Assembly: GCA_000333815.1 (NCBI GenBank)
Contig: CAPI01000062.1
Span: 1-35,698 of the forward strand
Length of the DNA stretch: 35,698 nt
Direction: 5' to 3'
Origin: [Collinsella] massiliensis
GTDB taxonomy: Bacteria; Actinomycetota; Coriobacteriia; Coriobacteriales; Coriobacteriaceae
Of the stretch, positions 2,276 to 24,460 are shown piece after piece; within the stretch, counting starts at the first letter, position 1, and the number at the start of each line of letters is the position of its first letter. The notes under the pieces are model-generated. The model ran no database searches. It was not told where the DNA came from and worked only from the letters and a program-made list of their open reading frames with translations. A program made the translations under genes and the position numbers.

Positions 2276-3034
2276 ATGCTTGCAGAGGAACGGCTCAACA
2301 GGATCGTCGCTGTGGTGGACGAGCGGGGGACCGTCACCTCCGCCGAGCTCATGGAGCTGCTGAACGCATCGGAGTCCACCGTTCGCCGCGACCTCACGCG
2401 CCTTGCGCAGGAAGGGCGCATCGTGAAGGTTCACGGCGGTGCCGCCTCTGCGGGTGCGACGGCGGCTCGGCGCACGGTGGTCTCGGTCGACCAGGCGGTG
2501 GGTGAGCGCCACGAGCTCTATCTTGCCGAGAAGCGGCGCATCGCGCGCTTTGCGGCGACGCTTATCGGCCCCAGCGATTTCGTCTACATCGACGCCGGTT
2601 CCACCACGGGATGCCTGGCGGACGCCATCACTGAGCATTCAGCCACCTACGTGACGAACTCCGTGGAGATCGCGCACGCCCTGTTCGAAAAAGGTTGCCG
2701 CGTGCTCATGCCGGCGGGCGAGATCAAGACCGTTACCGGCGCGCTCGTGGGCGAGCAGACGGTGGAGACGCTTCGCCGCTTCCGCTTCACGATCGGGTTC
2801 TTCGGCACGAACGGCGCGACGCCTGATGCCGGCTTCACGACGCCTGAGCTGGGCGAAGCCCTGGTGAAGGAGACCGCGCTCGCGCATACGCTCAAGCCGT
2901 ACGTGCTGTGCGATTCGAGCAAGCTTTCCGCTGTATCGCCCGTCGCCTTCGCGGCGTTCGACGACGCCGTGGTCATCACCGACGCCGTACCCAGCGAACT
3001 CGACGGTTATTCGAATGTCATCGTCGTCGAGTAG
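2276..3034 (+). CDS. fruR: DeoR-family transcriptional regulator of fructose utilisation
   Basis: ATG at 2276 is chosen over the open TTG at 2231 because GGGAGGG ends seven bases before it. The 252-residue protein has the DeoR winged helix at the N-terminus (ERLNRIVAVVDERGTVTSAE, then ASESTVRRDLTRLAQEGRIVKVHGGA up to about residue 57). A sugar-phosphate sensor domain of the isomerase-like fold follows, with the conserved IDAGSTTGCLA stretch around residue 107. DeoR proteins of this kind usually repress a sugar operon and are released by a phosphorylated sugar; here fructose-1-phosphate is inferred from the fruK and fruA neighbours. It is the first gene of the operon, 37 bp before fruK, and lies directly downstream of the 10-bp repeat array. 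Confidence 0.9.
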   Translation: MLAEERLNRIVAVVDERGTVTSAELMELLNASESTVRRDLTRLAQEGRIVKVHGGAASAGATAARRTVVSVDQAVGERHELYLAEKRRIARFAATLIGPSDFVYIDAGSTTGCLADAITEHSATYVTNSVEIAHALFEKGCRVLMPAGEIKTVTGALVGEQTVETLRRFRFTIGFFGTNGATPDAGFTTPELGEALVKETALAHTLKPYVLCDSSKLSAVSPVAFAAFDDAVVITDAVPSELDGYSNVIVVE

Positions 3035-3071
3035 GACATCGACACCCCACCGTCTCCCAAGGAGGAAGCAC

Positions 3072-3980
3072 ATGATTTACACCGTAACGTTCAACCCGTG
3101 CCTCGACTACATCATCCAGGTCAACGGTCTCAAGCTCGGGCTCGTGAACCGAACCGCGCATGAGGAGATGCTGCCCGGCGGCAAGGGCGTGAACGTGTCC
3201 ATCGTGCTCAGGAACCTCGGCCACGAGAATCGTGCGCTCGGCTTCCTTGCGGGCTTCACGGGGGCGGAGATCGCGCGCCGCCTGCGCGAGACGGGCGTCG
3301 AGGCGGATTTCATCGAGGTCGCCGAGGGTATGAGCCGCATCAACGTGAAGATCAACTCCGACGGCGTTGAGACCGAGGTCAATGGCATGGGTCCCGCCAT
3401 TCAGCCGGCGGATGTCGAAGCGCTCTACGCGAAGCTCGACGAGCTCACGGCCGGCGACACCCTCATCATCTCTGGCAGCGTGCCGAGTGTGCTGCCCGGC
3501 GACATCTATGAGCGCATCATGGCCAGGCTCGAGGGTCGCGGCGTGTCTATCGTCGTCGACGCCACGCGCGACCTGCTCGTGAACGTGCTGCCGTATCACC
3601 CCTTCCTCATCAAGCCGAACAACCACGAGCTCGGCGAGATCTTCGACGTGGAGCTCCGCACTCGCGAAGAGGTCGTGCCCTGGGCGCGGAAGATGCAGGA
3701 GCGCGGGGCGCGCAACGTTCTTGTCTCCATGGCGGGCGAGGGCGCGGTGCTCGTGGCCGAGGACGGCTCGGTGCACGAGAGCCCGGCGCCGCGCGGTCAT
3801 GTGGTGAACTCCGTAGGAGCGGGCGACTCGATGGTCGCAGGCTTCGTTGCGGGCTATACCGAGAGTGGCGGCGACTACGAGCAGGCGTTCCGCATGGGCG
3901 TGTGCACTGGTTCCGCCAGCGCGTTCTCCATGCAGCTCGCCACGCGCGCCGAAGTCGAGGCACTCCTCGCCGCCCTCTGA
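3072..3980 (+). CDS. fruK: 1-phosphofructokinase (PfkB family)
   Basis: Phosphorylates fructose-1-phosphate, the product of the fructose PTS, to fructose-1,6-bisphosphate in the cytoplasm. ATG at 3072 follows AAGGAGG; a longer open frame upstream only overlaps fruR. The 302 residues match the family length. PfkB signature 1 is at GGKGVN (36-41) and signature 2 at GAGDS (249-253), with the catalytic Asp at 252. KPNNHELGEIF lies in the centre as in FruK/LacC-type kinases. LacC (tagatose-6-phosphate kinase) is the main alternative, but the flanking fruR and fructose-type PTS favour FruK. It sits between fruR (37 bp gap) and fruA (169 bp gap). Confidence 0.93.
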   Translation: MIYTVTFNPCLDYIIQVNGLKLGLVNRTAHEEMLPGGKGVNVSIVLRNLGHENRALGFLAGFTGAEIARRLRETGVEADFIEVAEGMSRINVKINSDGVETEVNGMGPAIQPADVEALYAKLDELTAGDTLIISGSVPSVLPGDIYERIMARLEGRGVSIVVDATRDLLVNVLPYHPFLIKPNNHELGEIFDVELRTREEVVPWARKMQERGARNVLVSMAGEGAVLVAEDGSVHESPAPRGHVVNSVGAGDSMVAGFVAGYTESGGDYEQAFRMGVCTGSASAFSMQLATRAEVEALLAAL

Positions 3981-6512: not shown

Positions 6513-8111
6513 ATGGCAGAAGCGATGCGCGGCGTCTACACGAGCCTGACGAAGATCCGCCGCACCGTGTTCCGCGAGGTAGCTCGCATTGCGTACGAGG
6601 ACACCGACGGCGTGTACGATGAGTTCGACGACCTGCCCTACGAGATCATCTCGGGCGATGTCGCAACGTACCGCGAAAGCGTCTTCCTCGAGCGCGCCAT
6701 CGTGGGCGAGCGCATCCGTCTCGCCATGGGTCTGCCCATGCAGGGCGCCGATCGTCCGGCGAAGATTTCCGAGGGCACGGAGCTCGCGGCCAAGCCCGAG
6801 ACGTACTACGAACCCCCGCTCATCAACATCATCAACTTCGCGTGCAACGCGTGCGCTGAAGAGAAGTACGTGGTCTCGAACCTCTGCCAGGGCTGCCTCG
6901 CGCATCCCTGCAAGGAGGTGTGCCCCAGGGACGCGATTTCGTTCATCGACGGCAAGGCCCACATCGACCAGGAGAAGTGCATCAAGTGCGGCCGTTGCCG
7001 CCAGGCGTGCCCCTACACCGCTATCGCGCATTGGCAGCGCCCGTGCGCCGCGGCGTGCGGCATGAACGCGATCGGCTCCGACGAGCAGGGTCGCGCCGTG
7101 ATCGATTACGACAAGTGCGTCTCGTGCGGCCAGTGCCTCGTGAGCTGCCCGTTCGGCGCCATCGCGGACAAGAGCCAGATCTTCCAGATCATCCAGGCCA
7201 TCCGTACGGGCGAGGAGGTCATCGCCGCGGTGGCGCCCTCGTTCGTGGGGCAGTTCGGCGGCCGCGGCAACGTTGACAAGCTGCGCGAGGCGTTCAAGAA
7301 GCTCGGCTTCGCGGGCGTGGAGGAGGTCGCCATCGGCGCGGACCTTTGCGCGGTTCAGGAGGCCGGCTACTTCCTGGAGGAAGTGCCCGAGAAGATTCCG
7401 TTCATGGGCACGAGCTGCTGCCCCGCGTGGTCGGTCATGGCGAAGAAGGAGTTCCCCGAGCACGCCGGGTGCATCTCGATGGCGCTCACGCCCATGGTGC
7501 TCACCGCGCGCCTCATTCGCGAGCAGCATCCCACGGCGAAGATCGTCTTTGTGGGGCCGTGCGCCGCGAAGAAGCTCGAGGCCATGCGCAAGAGCGTGAA
7601 GAGCGAGGTCGACTTCGTGCTCACGTTCGAGGAGATGGCAGGCATGATGGAGGCCAAGGGCATCGAGTACACGAAGCTCAAGGGCGACGGCGCCTCGGAC
7701 TTCGACGTCGCGAGCGCGTCTGGCCGCGGTTTCGCCGTGGCGGGCGGCGTCGCGCAGGCCGTGGTCGACGCCATCCATAAGGACCATCCCGACATGGAGG
7801 TCAAGGTGGCGGCCGCGCAGGGCTTGGAGAACTGCCGCAAGATGATGAAGGATGCCGTGAAGGGCAAGTACGACGGCTACCTGCTCGAGGGCATGGCGTG
7901 TCCGGGCGGCTGCGTGGCGGGCGCCGGCACCATCCAGGCCGTGTCGAAGACGGCGGCGCAGGTCAAGGCCTATTCCAAGAAGTCGCCGCACAAGCTTGCG
8001 ACGGAGAACATGTACAACAAGTACCTCGACGTGCTCGAGCGTGCCGAAGACGGCATTCGTTCCGAGGACGCCGTGGCGGAAAGCCTCGAGGCCCAGAAGG
8101 GCGAGGCGTAA
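6513..8111 (+). CDS. Monomeric [FeFe]-hydrogenase, group B type
   Basis: Catalyses reversible proton reduction to H2, most likely re-oxidising reduced ferredoxin during fermentation in the cytoplasm. ATG at 6513 follows GAGGGGAG; 532 residues. Two ferredoxin-type CxxCxxCxxxCP motifs lie at Cys156-166 and Cys202-212. Further cysteines (111, 114, 125, 128, 133, 137, 178, 182) can complete one or more additional clusters. The H-cluster motifs are TSCCPAW (300-306), GPCAAKK (348-354) and EGMACPGGCVAGAG (459-472). The second motif reads GPC rather than the MPC of well-studied group A enzymes, which together with the N-terminal cysteine pattern points to group B. No maturase (HydEFG) gene is nearby. 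It is convergent with the HD-domain gene, with a 12-bp gap. Confidence 0.93.
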   Translation: MAEAMRGVYTSLTKIRRTVFREVARIAYEDTDGVYDEFDDLPYEIISGDVATYRESVFLERAIVGERIRLAMGLPMQGADRPAKISEGTELAAKPETYYEPPLINIINFACNACAEEKYVVSNLCQGCLAHPCKEVCPRDAISFIDGKAHIDQEKCIKCGRCRQACPYTAIAHWQRPCAAACGMNAIGSDEQGRAVIDYDKCVSCGQCLVSCPFGAIADKSQIFQIIQAIRTGEEVIAAVAPSFVGQFGGRGNVDKLREAFKKLGFAGVEEVAIGADLCAVQEAGYFLEEVPEKIPFMGTSCCPAWSVMAKKEFPEHAGCISMALTPMVLTARLIREQHPTAKIVFVGPCAAKKLEAMRKSVKSEVDFVLTFEEMAGMMEAKGIEYTKLKGDGASDFDVASASGRGFAVAGGVAQAVVDAIHKDHPDMEVKVAAAQGLENCRKMMKDAVKGKYDGYLLEGMACPGGCVAGAGTIQAVSKTAAQVKAYSKKSPHKLATENMYNKYLDVLERAEDGIRSEDAVAESLEAQKGEA

Positions 8112-20605: not shown

Positions 20606-21005
20606 ATGCAGCTCCTCGTCCTTCGAATGATGAGATCCAGCCCGGCCGGTTTCCACCATGTTGGTTGCGCGCGGGCATCTACGACCATATCTGCCTGCAA
20701 TTCCGGCGTGTTTGGCGCATGAGGGGCGAAACAGAGATGTAACATGCTCCGCACAGGTGTGGAGGCCGAAGAACCCGCAGGTAGCGTTTATGCGCGAGCC
20801 GCTTTGCACGCTTTTCGCGCCTCCTGGGGAGTCCGGCTGCCCCCAGAACCCTTACGTTTCTTGCGAAAAGAGAGTAATCTAGCACGAACTACCTGTTGAA
20901 AGGTATGGGAATTTGCGTCCTTCCTGCGTGGCCGCACGCGGGGTATTGGGCGTTTGTGGGGGCTGCAGCGGTACGTCGCCGCTGCCGAATGAAGGGAGCG
21001 TTTGC
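20606..21005. other. 400-bp divergent intergenic region, hom / livK
   Basis: No convincing reading frame. A plausible plus-strand promoter is TTACGT (20852-20857), a 17-bp spacer and TAATCT (20875-20880), which would give a livK leader of about 119 nt. The leader ends in a hairpin, GCAGCGG (20965-20971) with CCGCTGC (20979-20985), just before the ribosome site. I do not recognise a riboswitch or T-box. The hom promoter could not be placed. Confidence 0.45.
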
Positions 21006-22274
21006 ATGTCGAGTCGCACTGCTATGCAAAACCTTTCCGTTAATCGTCGCACGTTCGTCGCGGGTACCGCGGGCCTTGGCCTCGTGGGCGTGCTCGCCGG
21101 CTGCTCCGGTGAGGGCGAGACGGGCGGCACCGGTTCCGCCGCGTCCGCTGGCGGTACGTTCAAGGTCGGCGGCATCGGACCCCTCACGGGCGGCGCTGCC
21201 ATCTATGGCAACGCGGTCAAGAACGGCGCACAGATCGCCATCGACGAGATCGCAGAGGCGGGCGGCGACGTCCAGTTCGAGATGAACTTCCAGGACGATG
21301 AGAACGACGCCGAGAAGTCCGTGAACGCGTATAACAACCTCAAGGACTGGGGCATGCAGATCCTCATGGGCACCGTGACCTCCACGCCGTGCGTCGCCGT
21401 GACCGCCGAGTCCAACGCGGACAACATCTTCACGCTCACCCCGTCCGGCTCCTCGACGGACTGCATCGGCGGCCAGCCCGACGCGGATGGCAACATCTCC
21501 ACGCCGCGCAAGGACAACGTCTTCCAGATGTGCTTCTCCGACCCCAACCAGGGCGCCGCTTCCGCGCAGTACATCTCCGAGCAGGGGCTCGGCACCAAGA
21601 TCGCCATCATCTACAAAAACGACGACACCTACTCCATGGGCATCCATGACACGTTCGTGAACAAGGCCGAGGAGCTCAACCTCGAGATCGTCTCTGAGTC
21701 CACGTTCACCGAGGATTCCCAGACCGACTTCTCCGTGCAGCTCAACGACGCCAAGAACGCCGGCGCCGACCTCGTGTTCCTGCCCATCTACTACACGCCC
21801 ATCTCGCTCATCCTCACGCAGGCAGATCAGATGGGTTACGCGCCCAAGTGGTTCGGCGTCGACGGCATGGACGGCCTGCTCACGGTAGAGGGCTTCGACA
21901 CTTCCCTTGCCGAGGGCTGCATGCTCCTCACCCCGTTCGTCGCGACCGCCGAGGACGAGGCCACGAAGTCCTTCGTCGAGAAGTACCAGAGCGACGATTA
22001 CGGCAAGGGCGAGACCCCGAACCAGTTCGCCGCCGATGCCTACGACTGCATCTACGTGCTCAAGCAGGCCATCGAGGCCGCTGGCGTGACGCCCGACATG
22101 GACGCGCAGTCCATCAGTGACGCCCTCAAGGAAGCCATCGTGGCCGACGACTTCTCCTACACCGGTCTCACCACGGCTGGCGAGGCAGCGACCTGGTCCG
22201 ATACCGGTGAGATCTCGAAGATGCCCATGGGCATGGTCATCCAGGACGGCGTGTACATGCCGCTCGACGCGTAA
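21006..22274 (+). CDS. livK: Branched-chain amino acid ABC transporter substrate-binding lipoprotein
   Basis: Extracytoplasmic, lipid-anchored binding protein of a Liv-type importer. ATG at 21006 follows GAAGGGAG; 422 residues. The signal sequence has a twin-arginine-like start (NRRTF, 13-17) and a lipobox LAGC with the lipidated Cys33, followed by a Ser/Gly/Thr linker. The mature part is a periplasmic-binding type I fold: KVGGIGPLTGGAAIYG at the start, then DDENDAEKSVNAYNNL, and a ligand-pocket region with TPCVAVTAESN. Ligand inferred from the family and from four downstream Liv genes: leucine, isoleucine or valine. A 203-bp gap with a large hairpin separates it from livH, as expected where the binding protein is made in excess. 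Confidence 0.92.
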   Translation: MSSRTAMQNLSVNRRTFVAGTAGLGLVGVLAGCSGEGETGGTGSAASAGGTFKVGGIGPLTGGAAIYGNAVKNGAQIAIDEIAEAGGDVQFEMNFQDDENDAEKSVNAYNNLKDWGMQILMGTVTSTPCVAVTAESNADNIFTLTPSGSSTDCIGGQPDADGNISTPRKDNVFQMCFSDPNQGAASAQYISEQGLGTKIAIIYKNDDTYSMGIHDTFVNKAEELNLEIVSESTFTEDSQTDFSVQLNDAKNAGADLVFLPIYYTPISLILTQADQMGYAPKWFGVDGMDGLLTVEGFDTSLAEGCMLLTPFVATAEDEATKSFVEKYQSDDYGKGETPNQFAADAYDCIYVLKQAIEAAGVTPDMDAQSISDALKEAIVADDFSYTGLTTAGEAATWSDTGEISKMPMGMVIQDGVYMPLDA

Positions 22275-22312
22275 GGGCTCGCGGGTTGTAGCGTGTAAAA
22301 TGACCCCAGGGA

Positions 22313-22414
22313 TCGTGTAAAAACACCCCAGGGGTTATTTTACATGCTTGTATCGGCGGACTTATGATTCAGGGTGGCTGCATGTAAAATAACCCCTGGG
22401 GTGTTTTTACACGA
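22313..22414. repeat. Perfect 35-bp inverted repeat in the livK-livH gap
   Basis: Arms 22313-22347 and 22380-22414 are exact reverse complements with a 32-base loop. Each arm contains an ACCCC/GGGGT core flanked by GTAAAA-type ends. A degenerate direct copy of part of the left arm lies just upstream (22293-22309, GTGTAAAATGACCCCAG). It has no reading frame. As RNA it would form a very stable hairpin inside the operon transcript. Confidence 0.9.
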
Positions 22415-22477
22415 CGCTACACGTATGGAGGCTGCCTGTTCGTGGGCGGCCTCCGCTTCATATGAAAGGAGGGGGGC

Positions 22478-23359
22478 ATGGAATTCCTCGCGAACGTCAT
22501 CAACGGCATGAGCCTGGGCAGTGTGTACGCCATCATCGCACTCGGCTACACCATGGTGTACGGCATCGCCAAGATGCTCAACTTCGCGCACGGCGACGTC
22601 ATCATGGTCGGCGCGTACATCTGCTTCTGCAGCGTGAGCTATCTGGGACTGCCTGTGCTCGCAGGCATCGCGCTCTCGGTGGTGGGGTGCACGGTGCTCG
22701 GCATCGTGGTGGAGCGCCTCGCCTATAAGCCGCTGCGCAACGCCCCGTCGCTAAACGTCCTCATCACGGCCATCGGCGTGAGCTACTTCCTTCAGAATGC
22801 GGCGCTGCTCATCATGGGCTCCGACCCCAAGAGCTTCTCGGGCATCCTGAGCCTGCCGGCGCTCCAGCTCTTCGACGGGCGTCTTACCATCAGCGCGACG
22901 GCAGTCATCACCATCTTGGCGTGCGTCGCCATCATGGTTGCCCTCACGTTCTTCACGAGCAAGACGAAGATGGGCAAGGCCATGCGCGCCTGCTCCGAGG
23001 ACCGCGACGCGGCGCAGCTCATGGGCATCAACGTGAACTCGACGATCTCTATGGTGTTTGCCATCGGCTCCGGTCTCGCGGCCATCGCGGGCGTGCTCAT
23101 GTGCGCGGCGTACCCCACGCTCATGCCCACCACGGGATCCATGCCCGGCATCAAGGCCTTCACGGCGGCGGTGCTCGGCGGCATCGGCTCCATCCCGGGT
23201 GCGGCGCTCGGCGGCATCCTCTTGGGTATCATCGAGATTCTCGCGCGTGCCTACATCTCCACGCAGCTCGCCGACGCAGTGGTGTTCGCGGTGCTCATCA
23301 TCATGCTCCTCATCCGTCCGGCCGGCTTGCTTGGCAAGCCCGTGAACGAGAAGGTGTAG
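22478..23359 (+). CDS. livH: Branched-chain amino acid ABC transporter permease
   Basis: One of the two channel-forming membrane subunits of the Liv importer. 293 residues with about eight membrane segments, as usual for LivH. The N-terminal NGMSLGSVYAIIALGYTMVY and the cytoplasmic loop MRACSEDRDAAQLMGIN (about 168-184), which docks to the ATPases, are family hallmarks, and the late GGIGSIPGAALGG stretch (about 235-247) is typical. AAAGGAGG precedes ATG 22478. The livM coding region starts 10 bp after its stop. Confidence 0.94.
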   Translation: MEFLANVINGMSLGSVYAIIALGYTMVYGIAKMLNFAHGDVIMVGAYICFCSVSYLGLPVLAGIALSVVGCTVLGIVVERLAYKPLRNAPSLNVLITAIGVSYFLQNAALLIMGSDPKSFSGILSLPALQLFDGRLTISATAVITILACVAIMVALTFFTSKTKMGKAMRACSEDRDAAQLMGINVNSTISMVFAIGSGLAAIAGVLMCAAYPTLMPTTGSMPGIKAFTAAVLGGIGSIPGAALGGILLGIIEILARAYISTQLADAVVFAVLIIMLLIRPAGLLGKPVNEKV

Positions 23360-23368
23360 GTGAGAGTC

Positions 23369-24460
23369 ATGGGTATCATGCAGCTTAAGCCGCAGACGCG
23401 GAAGACCATCATCACCTATGCAATCGTCATCGTGGCGTTCATCGCCGTGACCATCCTGGACGCTGTCGGGCTCATCTCGAACTCGCTTTCCGGCCAGCTC
23501 GTGCCCATTTGCGCGTACGTGTCGCTTGCCGTGTCGCTCAACCTCGTCGTCGGTGTTTCGGGCGAGCTGTCGCTCGGCCACGCCGGCTTCATGAGCGTGG
23601 GCGCTTTCACGGGCGTCGTCGTGGCTGGTTGGCTTTCGTATCTCGGTGTCGAATCCGACCTCGTGCTCTTCGCCGTCTCGGCGGTGGCGGGCGCCATCCT
23701 CGCCGGCATCGTGGGCTTTTTGGTGGGCATCCCGGTCATGCGCCTGCGCGGCGATTACCTGGCCATCGTGACGCTCGCGTTCGGCGAGATCATCAAGAAC
23801 CTGCTCAACAACGTCTATATCGGCGTCGACGGAGCGGGCTTGCACTTCGCGATGCTCTCCGATTCCTCCGCCCTCGGCATGAGCCAGGGCGTCATCCTCA
23901 TCAACGGTGCGAAGGGCGCCGTGGGCATCAGCAAGGTCTCGACGTTCGCGCTCGGCATCGTGGTGGTGCTCATTACCGTGGCGGTGGTCTTGAACCTCAT
24001 GCACAGCCGCGACGGCCGCGCCATCATGGCGGTGCGCGACAACCGCATCGCCGCAGAGAGCGTGGGCGTGAACGTGACGAAGTACCGCCTCATCGCCTTC
24101 ACTGTGGCCTCCGCCCTTGCGGGCGTGGCCGGCGTGCTCTACGCCATGAACTACTCGACGGTCGTGCCGTCGCAGTTCGACTTCAACCAGTCGATCCTCA
24201 TCCTCGTGTACGTCGTGCTCGGTGGTATGGGTAACATCTCCGGATCCATCGTCTCGGCCGCCTTCCTCACGGTGCTGCCCGAGGTGCTGCGCCCCATCAA
24301 CCAGTACCGCATGCTGCTCTATGCGATCGTGCTCATCCTCGTGATGGTCGTGCCGCACCTTTCCATCTATCAGCGCGCGACCGAGGCACTTCGTCGGCGC
24401 TTCAGCCGTGGTGCCGCCAAGCCCGCGGTAGCCACGGAGGGCGGTGAGGCCGATGAGTAA
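23369..24460 (+). CDS. livM: Branched-chain amino acid ABC transporter permease
   Basis: Second membrane subunit of the Liv importer. ATG at 23369 is chosen because GGTGAG lies just before it; GTG at 23360 and ATG at 23378 are alternatives. About 363 residues with roughly nine membrane segments. LNLVVGVSGELSLGHAGFM (about 53-71) and the ATPase-docking loop VRDNRIAAESVGVN (about 221-234) are typical of LivM, as is GGMGNISGSIV (about 285-295). Its last 8 bp overlap the start of livG, so translation is coupled. Confidence 0.93.
   Translation: MGIMQLKPQTRKTIITYAIVIVAFIAVTILDAVGLISNSLSGQLVPICAYVSLAVSLNLVVGVSGELSLGHAGFMSVGAFTGVVVAGWLSYLGVESDLVLFAVSAVAGAILAGIVGFLVGIPVMRLRGDYLAIVTLAFGEIIKNLLNNVYIGVDGAGLHFAMLSDSSALGMSQGVILINGAKGAVGISKVSTFALGIVVVLITVAVVLNLMHSRDGRAIMAVRDNRIAAESVGVNVTKYRLIAFTVASALAGVAGVLYAMNYSTVVPSQFDFNQSILILVYVVLGGMGNISGSIVSAAFLTVLPEVLRPINQYRMLLYAIVLILVMVVPHLSIYQRATEALRRRFSRGAAKPAVATEGGEADE

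Follow-up and report, generated by a model that had tools for sequence, protein, structure and literature searches.

In TIRtrons, genes of Y1 transposases are flanked by non-GTAG inverted repeats, some of which are self-complementary and dispersed in dimers; such dispersed self-complementary dimers were described in Stenotrophomonas maltophilia K279a, and a GGGGWSAS motif is common to only some of the TIRtron repeats (PMC3733652, in part). Most TIRtron transposases belong to subclass 2.1, and the excerpted text of the classification reports no REP-like sequences beside these genes and only subclass 1.1 in Actinobacteridae (PMC6006769). In the Pseudomonas REPIN-RAYT system, REP doublets are inverted, intergenic and hairpin-forming, lie about 70 bp apart and form one family per transposase, with copies that flank the transposase gene (PMC3116915, in part).

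The inverted repeat between livK and livH analyzed here is very likely one member of a REPIN-like family of inverted self-palindromes of 29-31 nt; a Y1/HUH transposase of the RAYT/TIRYT kind probably dispersed this family. The family shares the above features of the Pseudomonas system. However, its unit is a 29-31-nt near-symmetric palindrome, singlets dominate and GTAG is absent from most units (compared with PMC3116915, in part). E. coli REP/BIME palindromes also lie near gene 3' ends (PMC3733652 and PMC8266576, both in part), but the family here has neither a GTAG tag nor a conserved bulge and goes with a different transposase group. As in TIRtrons, inverted repeats that lack the GTAG tag lie on either side of the Y1 gene, whereas the repeat sequence is another one, not GGGGWSAS (PMC3733652, in part). 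Judged from its sequence, the family was filed as a new one of the REPIN/TIRtron kind. In the literature searched, which was available in part, no REP/TIR-transposase system in Coriobacteriaceae (Actinomycetota) was found described.

The inverted repeat between livK and livH

The window, i.e., the whole stretch of 35,698 nucleotides that was analyzed, contains a livK-like gene followed by livH and by genes matching livM, livG and livF (Table 1). The initial annotation had placed a perfect 35-bp inverted repeat between the binding-protein gene and the first permease gene, and both statements were borne out: a repeat search found two arms of 35 nt, 100% complementary and separated by a 32-nt spacer, in the interval between livK and livH. 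No inverted repeat in the window was longer (spacers of up to 200 allowed), and 100 mononucleotide shuffles of the window produced none above 15 nt. Each arm contains the palindrome TGTAAAAACACCCCAGGGGTTATTTTACA, and the self-palindromic 29-nt unit of each arm is TGTAAAANNACCCCWGGGGTNNTTTTACA, the right-arm unit being the reverse complement of the left-arm unit. Within the window, the unit matched the two arms only (0 expected). The two arms form an inverted, REPIN-like REP doublet. An Rfam scan of the window returned no family at its threshold, and a promoter scan of the element gave one sigma-70-like match (22339-22368), with 0.6 expected by chance.

Table 1. Features of the livK-livH region (positions in the window) and palindromes beside two sister transposase genes (loci named)
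Feature	Position	Strand	Remark
livK-like substrate-binding protein gene	21006..22274	+	start from own ORF caller; family matches
Partial extra left-arm copy	22292..22311	+	22 nt upstream of left arm; read as local tandem duplication
Left arm of REP doublet	22313..22347	+	unit proper 22316-22344, central base A
Loop separating arms	22348..22379	.	32 nt; poorly conserved across species
Right arm of REP doublet	22380..22414	-	unit proper 22383-22411, central base T
Separate conserved stem-loop	22425..22456	+	precedes livH ribosome-binding site; occurs with and without REPIN
livH permease gene	22478..23359	+	own ORF caller; family matches
Sister-gene palindromes, L061 (G000:C51)	2963-2993 and 3782-3812		
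Sister-gene palindromes, L057 (G000:C99)	beside 2604-3344		

A REP palindrome also lies between the binding-protein and permease genes malE and malF of E. coli. By analogy, the hairpin might protect livK mRNA from 3' decay, lower livHMGF and have been kept for that purpose, which we consider unlikely. Its position between binding-protein and permease genes is in favor of such a stabilizer, and so is the fold of the livK-livH spacer, predicted at -107.2 kcal/mol as RNA (z -9.1; as DNA, z -9.5). If the element is transcribed, the liv mRNA would carry a very stable hairpin, and a side effect on livK mRNA is therefore plausible. The 35-bp stem, once transcribed, would be a plausible substrate of RNase III, so that cutting by this enzyme or decay from the 3' end of livK could plausibly be influenced as a by-product.

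The dispersed units and their probable Y1 transposase

In its own genome (G000; 2.33 Mb, 135 contigs), the 29-nt unit was found at 104 places with up to 3 mismatches, while a backwards-read control gave 0. The initial annotation had suspected a mobile repeat, a view that a lack of other copies in the genome would have contradicted; such copies do exist, and the 104 units, together with those flanking a transposase gene, support this view, the repeat being probably mobile. Flanks were examined for 77 of the 104 units, which grouped in 55 clusters. None of the 55 was located within a called gene: the neighboring genes were tandem for 32, convergent for 11 and divergent for 9, and 3 clusters were at contig edges; all clusters placeable relative to genes were intergenic. 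According to distances that rest on our own dicodon ORF caller, 36 of 54 gene 3' ends were within 20 nt of a unit and 19 of the 54 had the stop codon inside it, but only 7 of 50 gene 5' ends were that close. GTAG REPs have the same gene-end habit and often supply the stop codon (PMC3733652, in part). Upstream genes here often get their stop codon from units (e.g., L087 3063-3091), so that C-termini may have been shortened or changed by insertions.

The unit is a near-perfect symmetric palindrome with nearly every position fixed; its consensus has a CCCC/GGGG core, an A-rich 5' side and a T-rich 3' side. A strongly conserved palindrome that is intergenic wherever it can be placed could be the operator of a global DNA-binding regulator, and about 100 promoters would then have it as a transcription-factor site. 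However, the units crowd gene 3' ends and not 5' ends, more positions are fixed than an operator needs, and the occurrence is patchy even in one genus, with 104 and 144 units in two of five genomes and 0, 2 and 0 in the others; we regard an operator as extremely unlikely. The location at gene ends and the core with its A-rich and T-rich sides would also suit AT-flanked GC hairpins acting as a bidirectional transcription terminator or attenuator. But the GC stem is only about 4 bp, the T side is paired into the stem, no intrinsic-terminator-like site was called in 20800-23500, and tight sequence identity with clade-limited occurrence is ill-suited to a terminator, making this reading very unlikely.

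The doublets show the REPIN arrangement (PMC3116915, in part). Among the 77 units of G000, 13 doublets were 50-95 bp apart and singlets prevailed; 11 of the 13 were inverted, with the central A first and the central T second. Over the loci examined in five genomes, 24 of 29 doublets at 50-95 bp had the A centre followed by the T centre, and 5 were arranged otherwise. Arms were perfect in 14 of the 29 (5 of 13 in G000, the window element among them). Mismatches between arms averaged 2.15 within doublets of G000 compared with 3.65 for random unit pairs (resampling P 0.0006), and 1.93 compared with 4.42 in the five genomes. Doublets elsewhere, some between convergent genes, had equally perfect arms, so this perfection is not special to the liv operon, which argues against a stabilizer. 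A conserved unpaired GTAG/GTGG tag 5' of the hairpin was absent outside the palindrome in the 77 units, an internal TGTAGA foot occurred in 9 of the 77, and the unit consensus contained no GGGGWSAS motif.

G000 has six genes with a Y1_Tnp domain. One of them, G000:C29:2668-3453 (locus L056; minus strand, 261 aa), is flanked by units at 2623, 16 nt past the stop, and at 3466, 12 nt before the start, and its orthologues in G050, G044 and G004 have unit copies in their flanks too. An earlier guess of IS256-type terminal repeats, made from the GTGTAAAA ends, was dropped once this gene was found flanked by units. The C29 protein scored 46 bits against Pfam Y1_Tnp (cut-off 23). REP_Tyr_transpos was the only NCBIfam family matched, with 68.7 bits, below the curated cut-off of 80, and the match to the E. 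coli TnpA-REP structure 4er8 was weak (E 1.3e-4). The motifs NHVH, FQ and YVHINP (Y-V-H-x-N-P) were read by eye against the published subclass table, and by motifs only the protein resembles subclass 2.1, for which the published features include the Y motif Y-[IV]-H-L-NP and a C-terminal HTH (PMC6006769, in part). HTH_23 matched two sister proteins and gave no match in the C29 protein. The difference from the published subclass 2.1 is that about 100 units accompany such a gene here, in Coriobacteriaceae (PMC6006769, in part). In the proposed mechanism, the Y1 protein would recognize the unit when it is folded into a hairpin in single-stranded DNA.

Other palindromes, TGATAAAA-N15-TTTTATCA, of which G000 has 77 (at most 1 mismatch), flank the sister Y1 genes of contigs C51 and C99. 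Their cores are CCAGACAGGCTGG or GGTGTCAGTCACC, and these two core types match the two genes. The flanking palindromes at C29, C51 and C99 thus indicate that at least three of the six genes each have a repeat family of their own. In a palindrome scan beside 23 Y1 loci, 20 genes were located and self-palindromes were near at least six of them, at least two with the 29-nt unit; the filter was strict and missed some known palindromes, so these figures are no count of absence. In two other family genomes, the Y1 genes of L179 (1501-2250) and L182 (1468-2250) are beside other self-palindromes, AATGCGCCATTTAGGGTC... and TGTGCGATTTGGGGTC..., respectively, which suggests that Coriobacteriaceae have many transposase-repeat pairs. 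Inverted repeats of the form GGGGACGGG..., which recall the published GGGGWSAS repeats of TIRtrons, are found downstream of L060 3773 (G000:C43) and at L153, about 7219-7361. At L106 2987-3015, G000 has a single unit, and the matching G004 site (L073 2625-3632) holds another Y1 gene.

Of the 65 family genomes compared, 5, G000 included, encode a protein with 69% identity or more to the C29 transposase (the four others at 71, 69, 70 and 70%); the next protein was 55% identical. These five genomes have 104 (G000), 73 (G049), 144 (G004), 16 (G050) and 13 (G044) units, and the remaining 60 have 0, 1 or 2 each. Since Y1 proteins less like C29 are present in 53 of the 65, the link between the C29 gene and the repeat is drawn from the flanking copies together with this co-occurrence, which is confined to one liv clade and therefore reflects few independent events. 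The variants of the unit go with the transposase: next to the transposase gene of G050 and of G044 stands a unit of the CCCTAGGGA type, to which most units of these genomes belong. When 84,980 species, represented by one genome each and perhaps excluding the own genome, were scanned for exact matches, 18 stretches were obtained, all of them in three Coriobacteriaceae assemblies: an uncultured Coriobacteriaceae, an uncultured Collinsella and Collinsella tanakaei ET10, a species of the Actinomycetota, Coriobacteriia.

Age of the livK-livH insertion and identity of its arms

livH loci were fetched for 29 genomes, and that of G044 was taken from a contig end; in G021 and G025, the pattern used gave no livH start, leaving 28 spacers, with 35 of the 65 family genomes outside this comparison. 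The doublet was present in five of the 28, namely in G000, G004, G044, G049 and G050, the same five that carry the transposase. Its complete retention in all five could be taken in favor of a stabilizer, but it was absent from the other 23 spacers examined. Spacers of the non-carriers were 70-104 nt long, four g4 lengths ending at an early ATG, except for G045 (181) and the distant G037 (206), both of which lack the unit.

The database classification splits the five carriers into two genera, g1 and g3, the latter comprising G049, G050 and G044. Independent insertions at one hotspot in the two lineages, as opposed to a single old insertion, would be compatible with this split, with g1 and g3 loops that are hardly alignable, and with different starts of the left unit, spacer nt 20 for the g3 genomes and nt 27 for G004. 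However, a tree of the 3' part of livK and of livH unites the five carriers in one clade (ultrafast bootstrap 93, SH-aLRT 98), so the insertion looks old and single. In addition, the livK-livH unit of G050 and G044 retains the CCCCAGGGG form, though most units there are CCCTAGGGA, which marks it as an old copy. The partial copy of G000 also starts at about nt 20, the position of the left unit in g3. We consider the hotspot reading rather unlikely. Given this shared start, the partial copy is best accounted for if 22 bp of the left arm were duplicated in tandem. The initial annotation was right that an extra copy exists (90% identity to 22314-22333), but a separate insertion accounts for it less well. 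Likewise, its suggestion that the element may be recent is not supported, as the doublet occupies the same place in five species of one clade. The single old insertion would have taken place in an ancestor shared by the five carriers, about 20 nt past the stop codon of livK, and then been kept.

Few other copies are shared in this way. For 142 clusters across the five genomes, both flanks were common to g1 and g3 at three sites only (livK-livH; the transposase locus; L078:6133 with L120 and L231), although the comparison covered part of each genome and may miss shared sites. In a direct comparison of G000 with G004, the livK-livH doublet was kept, the counterpart of L085 had units of another subtype, that of L087 was only a remnant with 6 mismatches, and those of L094, L109, L111 and L056:2123 had no units. 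Exact insertion borders were not readable at these sites, since the G004 sites empty of the G000 element were too diverged in their flanks.

In four species, the arms aligned as 35 pairs with 99.3% of cells paired; six pairs had changed on both sides, and one G-U was seen among 136 cells. The loop and flanks, by comparison, drifted between species. The changed arm sequence of G050 is found nowhere else among its 16 listed units, indicating that both arms changed in place and were not replaced from another copy. These patterns suggest that one arm was recopied from the other at the DNA level, within a DNA hairpin. Gene conversion, which the initial annotation had listed among the ways of keeping the arms identical, fits the concerted changes between species. 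Selection on arm pairing is possible, but over mRNA-level selection specific to this operon we favor a mechanism in which hairpin formation would allow one arm to be recopied from the other.

The second stem-loop and significance of the family

A second stem-loop, GGAGGC..GCCTCC, lies just before the livH ribosome-binding site. It was found in 27 of the 28 spacers: a pattern search detected 25, variants in G000 and G045 could be aligned, and G037 had none. In the alignment (19 distinct sequences from 27 genomes), 98.7% of cells in 12 pairs were paired and three pairs had changed on both sides; 268 of 500 shuffles reached this number of pairs, and 0 of 500 reached the covariation score. G-U cells, the usual mark of RNA-level selection, numbered about 20 of 228 here but 1 of 136 in the REPIN arms, which is another argument against the REPIN as stabilizer, though the alignments are of unequal depth and the contrast is only indicative. 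The stem-loop is followed by UUU or UUUU in most species and only by UUCA in G000 and G004. It is possibly an attenuator or the 3'-end hairpin of livK mRNA. Because it is kept in nearly all spacers with or without the REPIN, it fits a role of the malE-malF type better, and would be the better candidate for such an analogue, independent of the REPIN. Of the two hairpins, this stem-loop, not the REPIN, would more likely be the one devoted to controlling the livK:livHMGF ratio. A combined reading can also be framed, in which a true REPIN population of Coriobacteriaceae is driven by a transposase like those of subclass 2.1 (group 1/TIRYT) and the livK-livH copy was domesticated: while the five species diverged, it would have been retained as an entire doublet with co-corrected arms, to set the binding protein:permease ratio on top of the older stem-loop. 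We consider this unlikely.

The REPIN-like family, as probably spread by its Y1 transposase, would extend REP/TIR-transposase systems to Coriobacteriaceae (Actinomycetota), and it would link a repeat of high copy number with a kind of transposase beside which REPs are said to be absent. The livK-livH copy, present in five species with arms that change together, may serve as a natural test of how hairpin arms remain identical. It also indicates that a hairpin may stand out in an operon and yet not be what regulates it: what nearly all relatives keep is the inconspicuous neighboring stem-loop.
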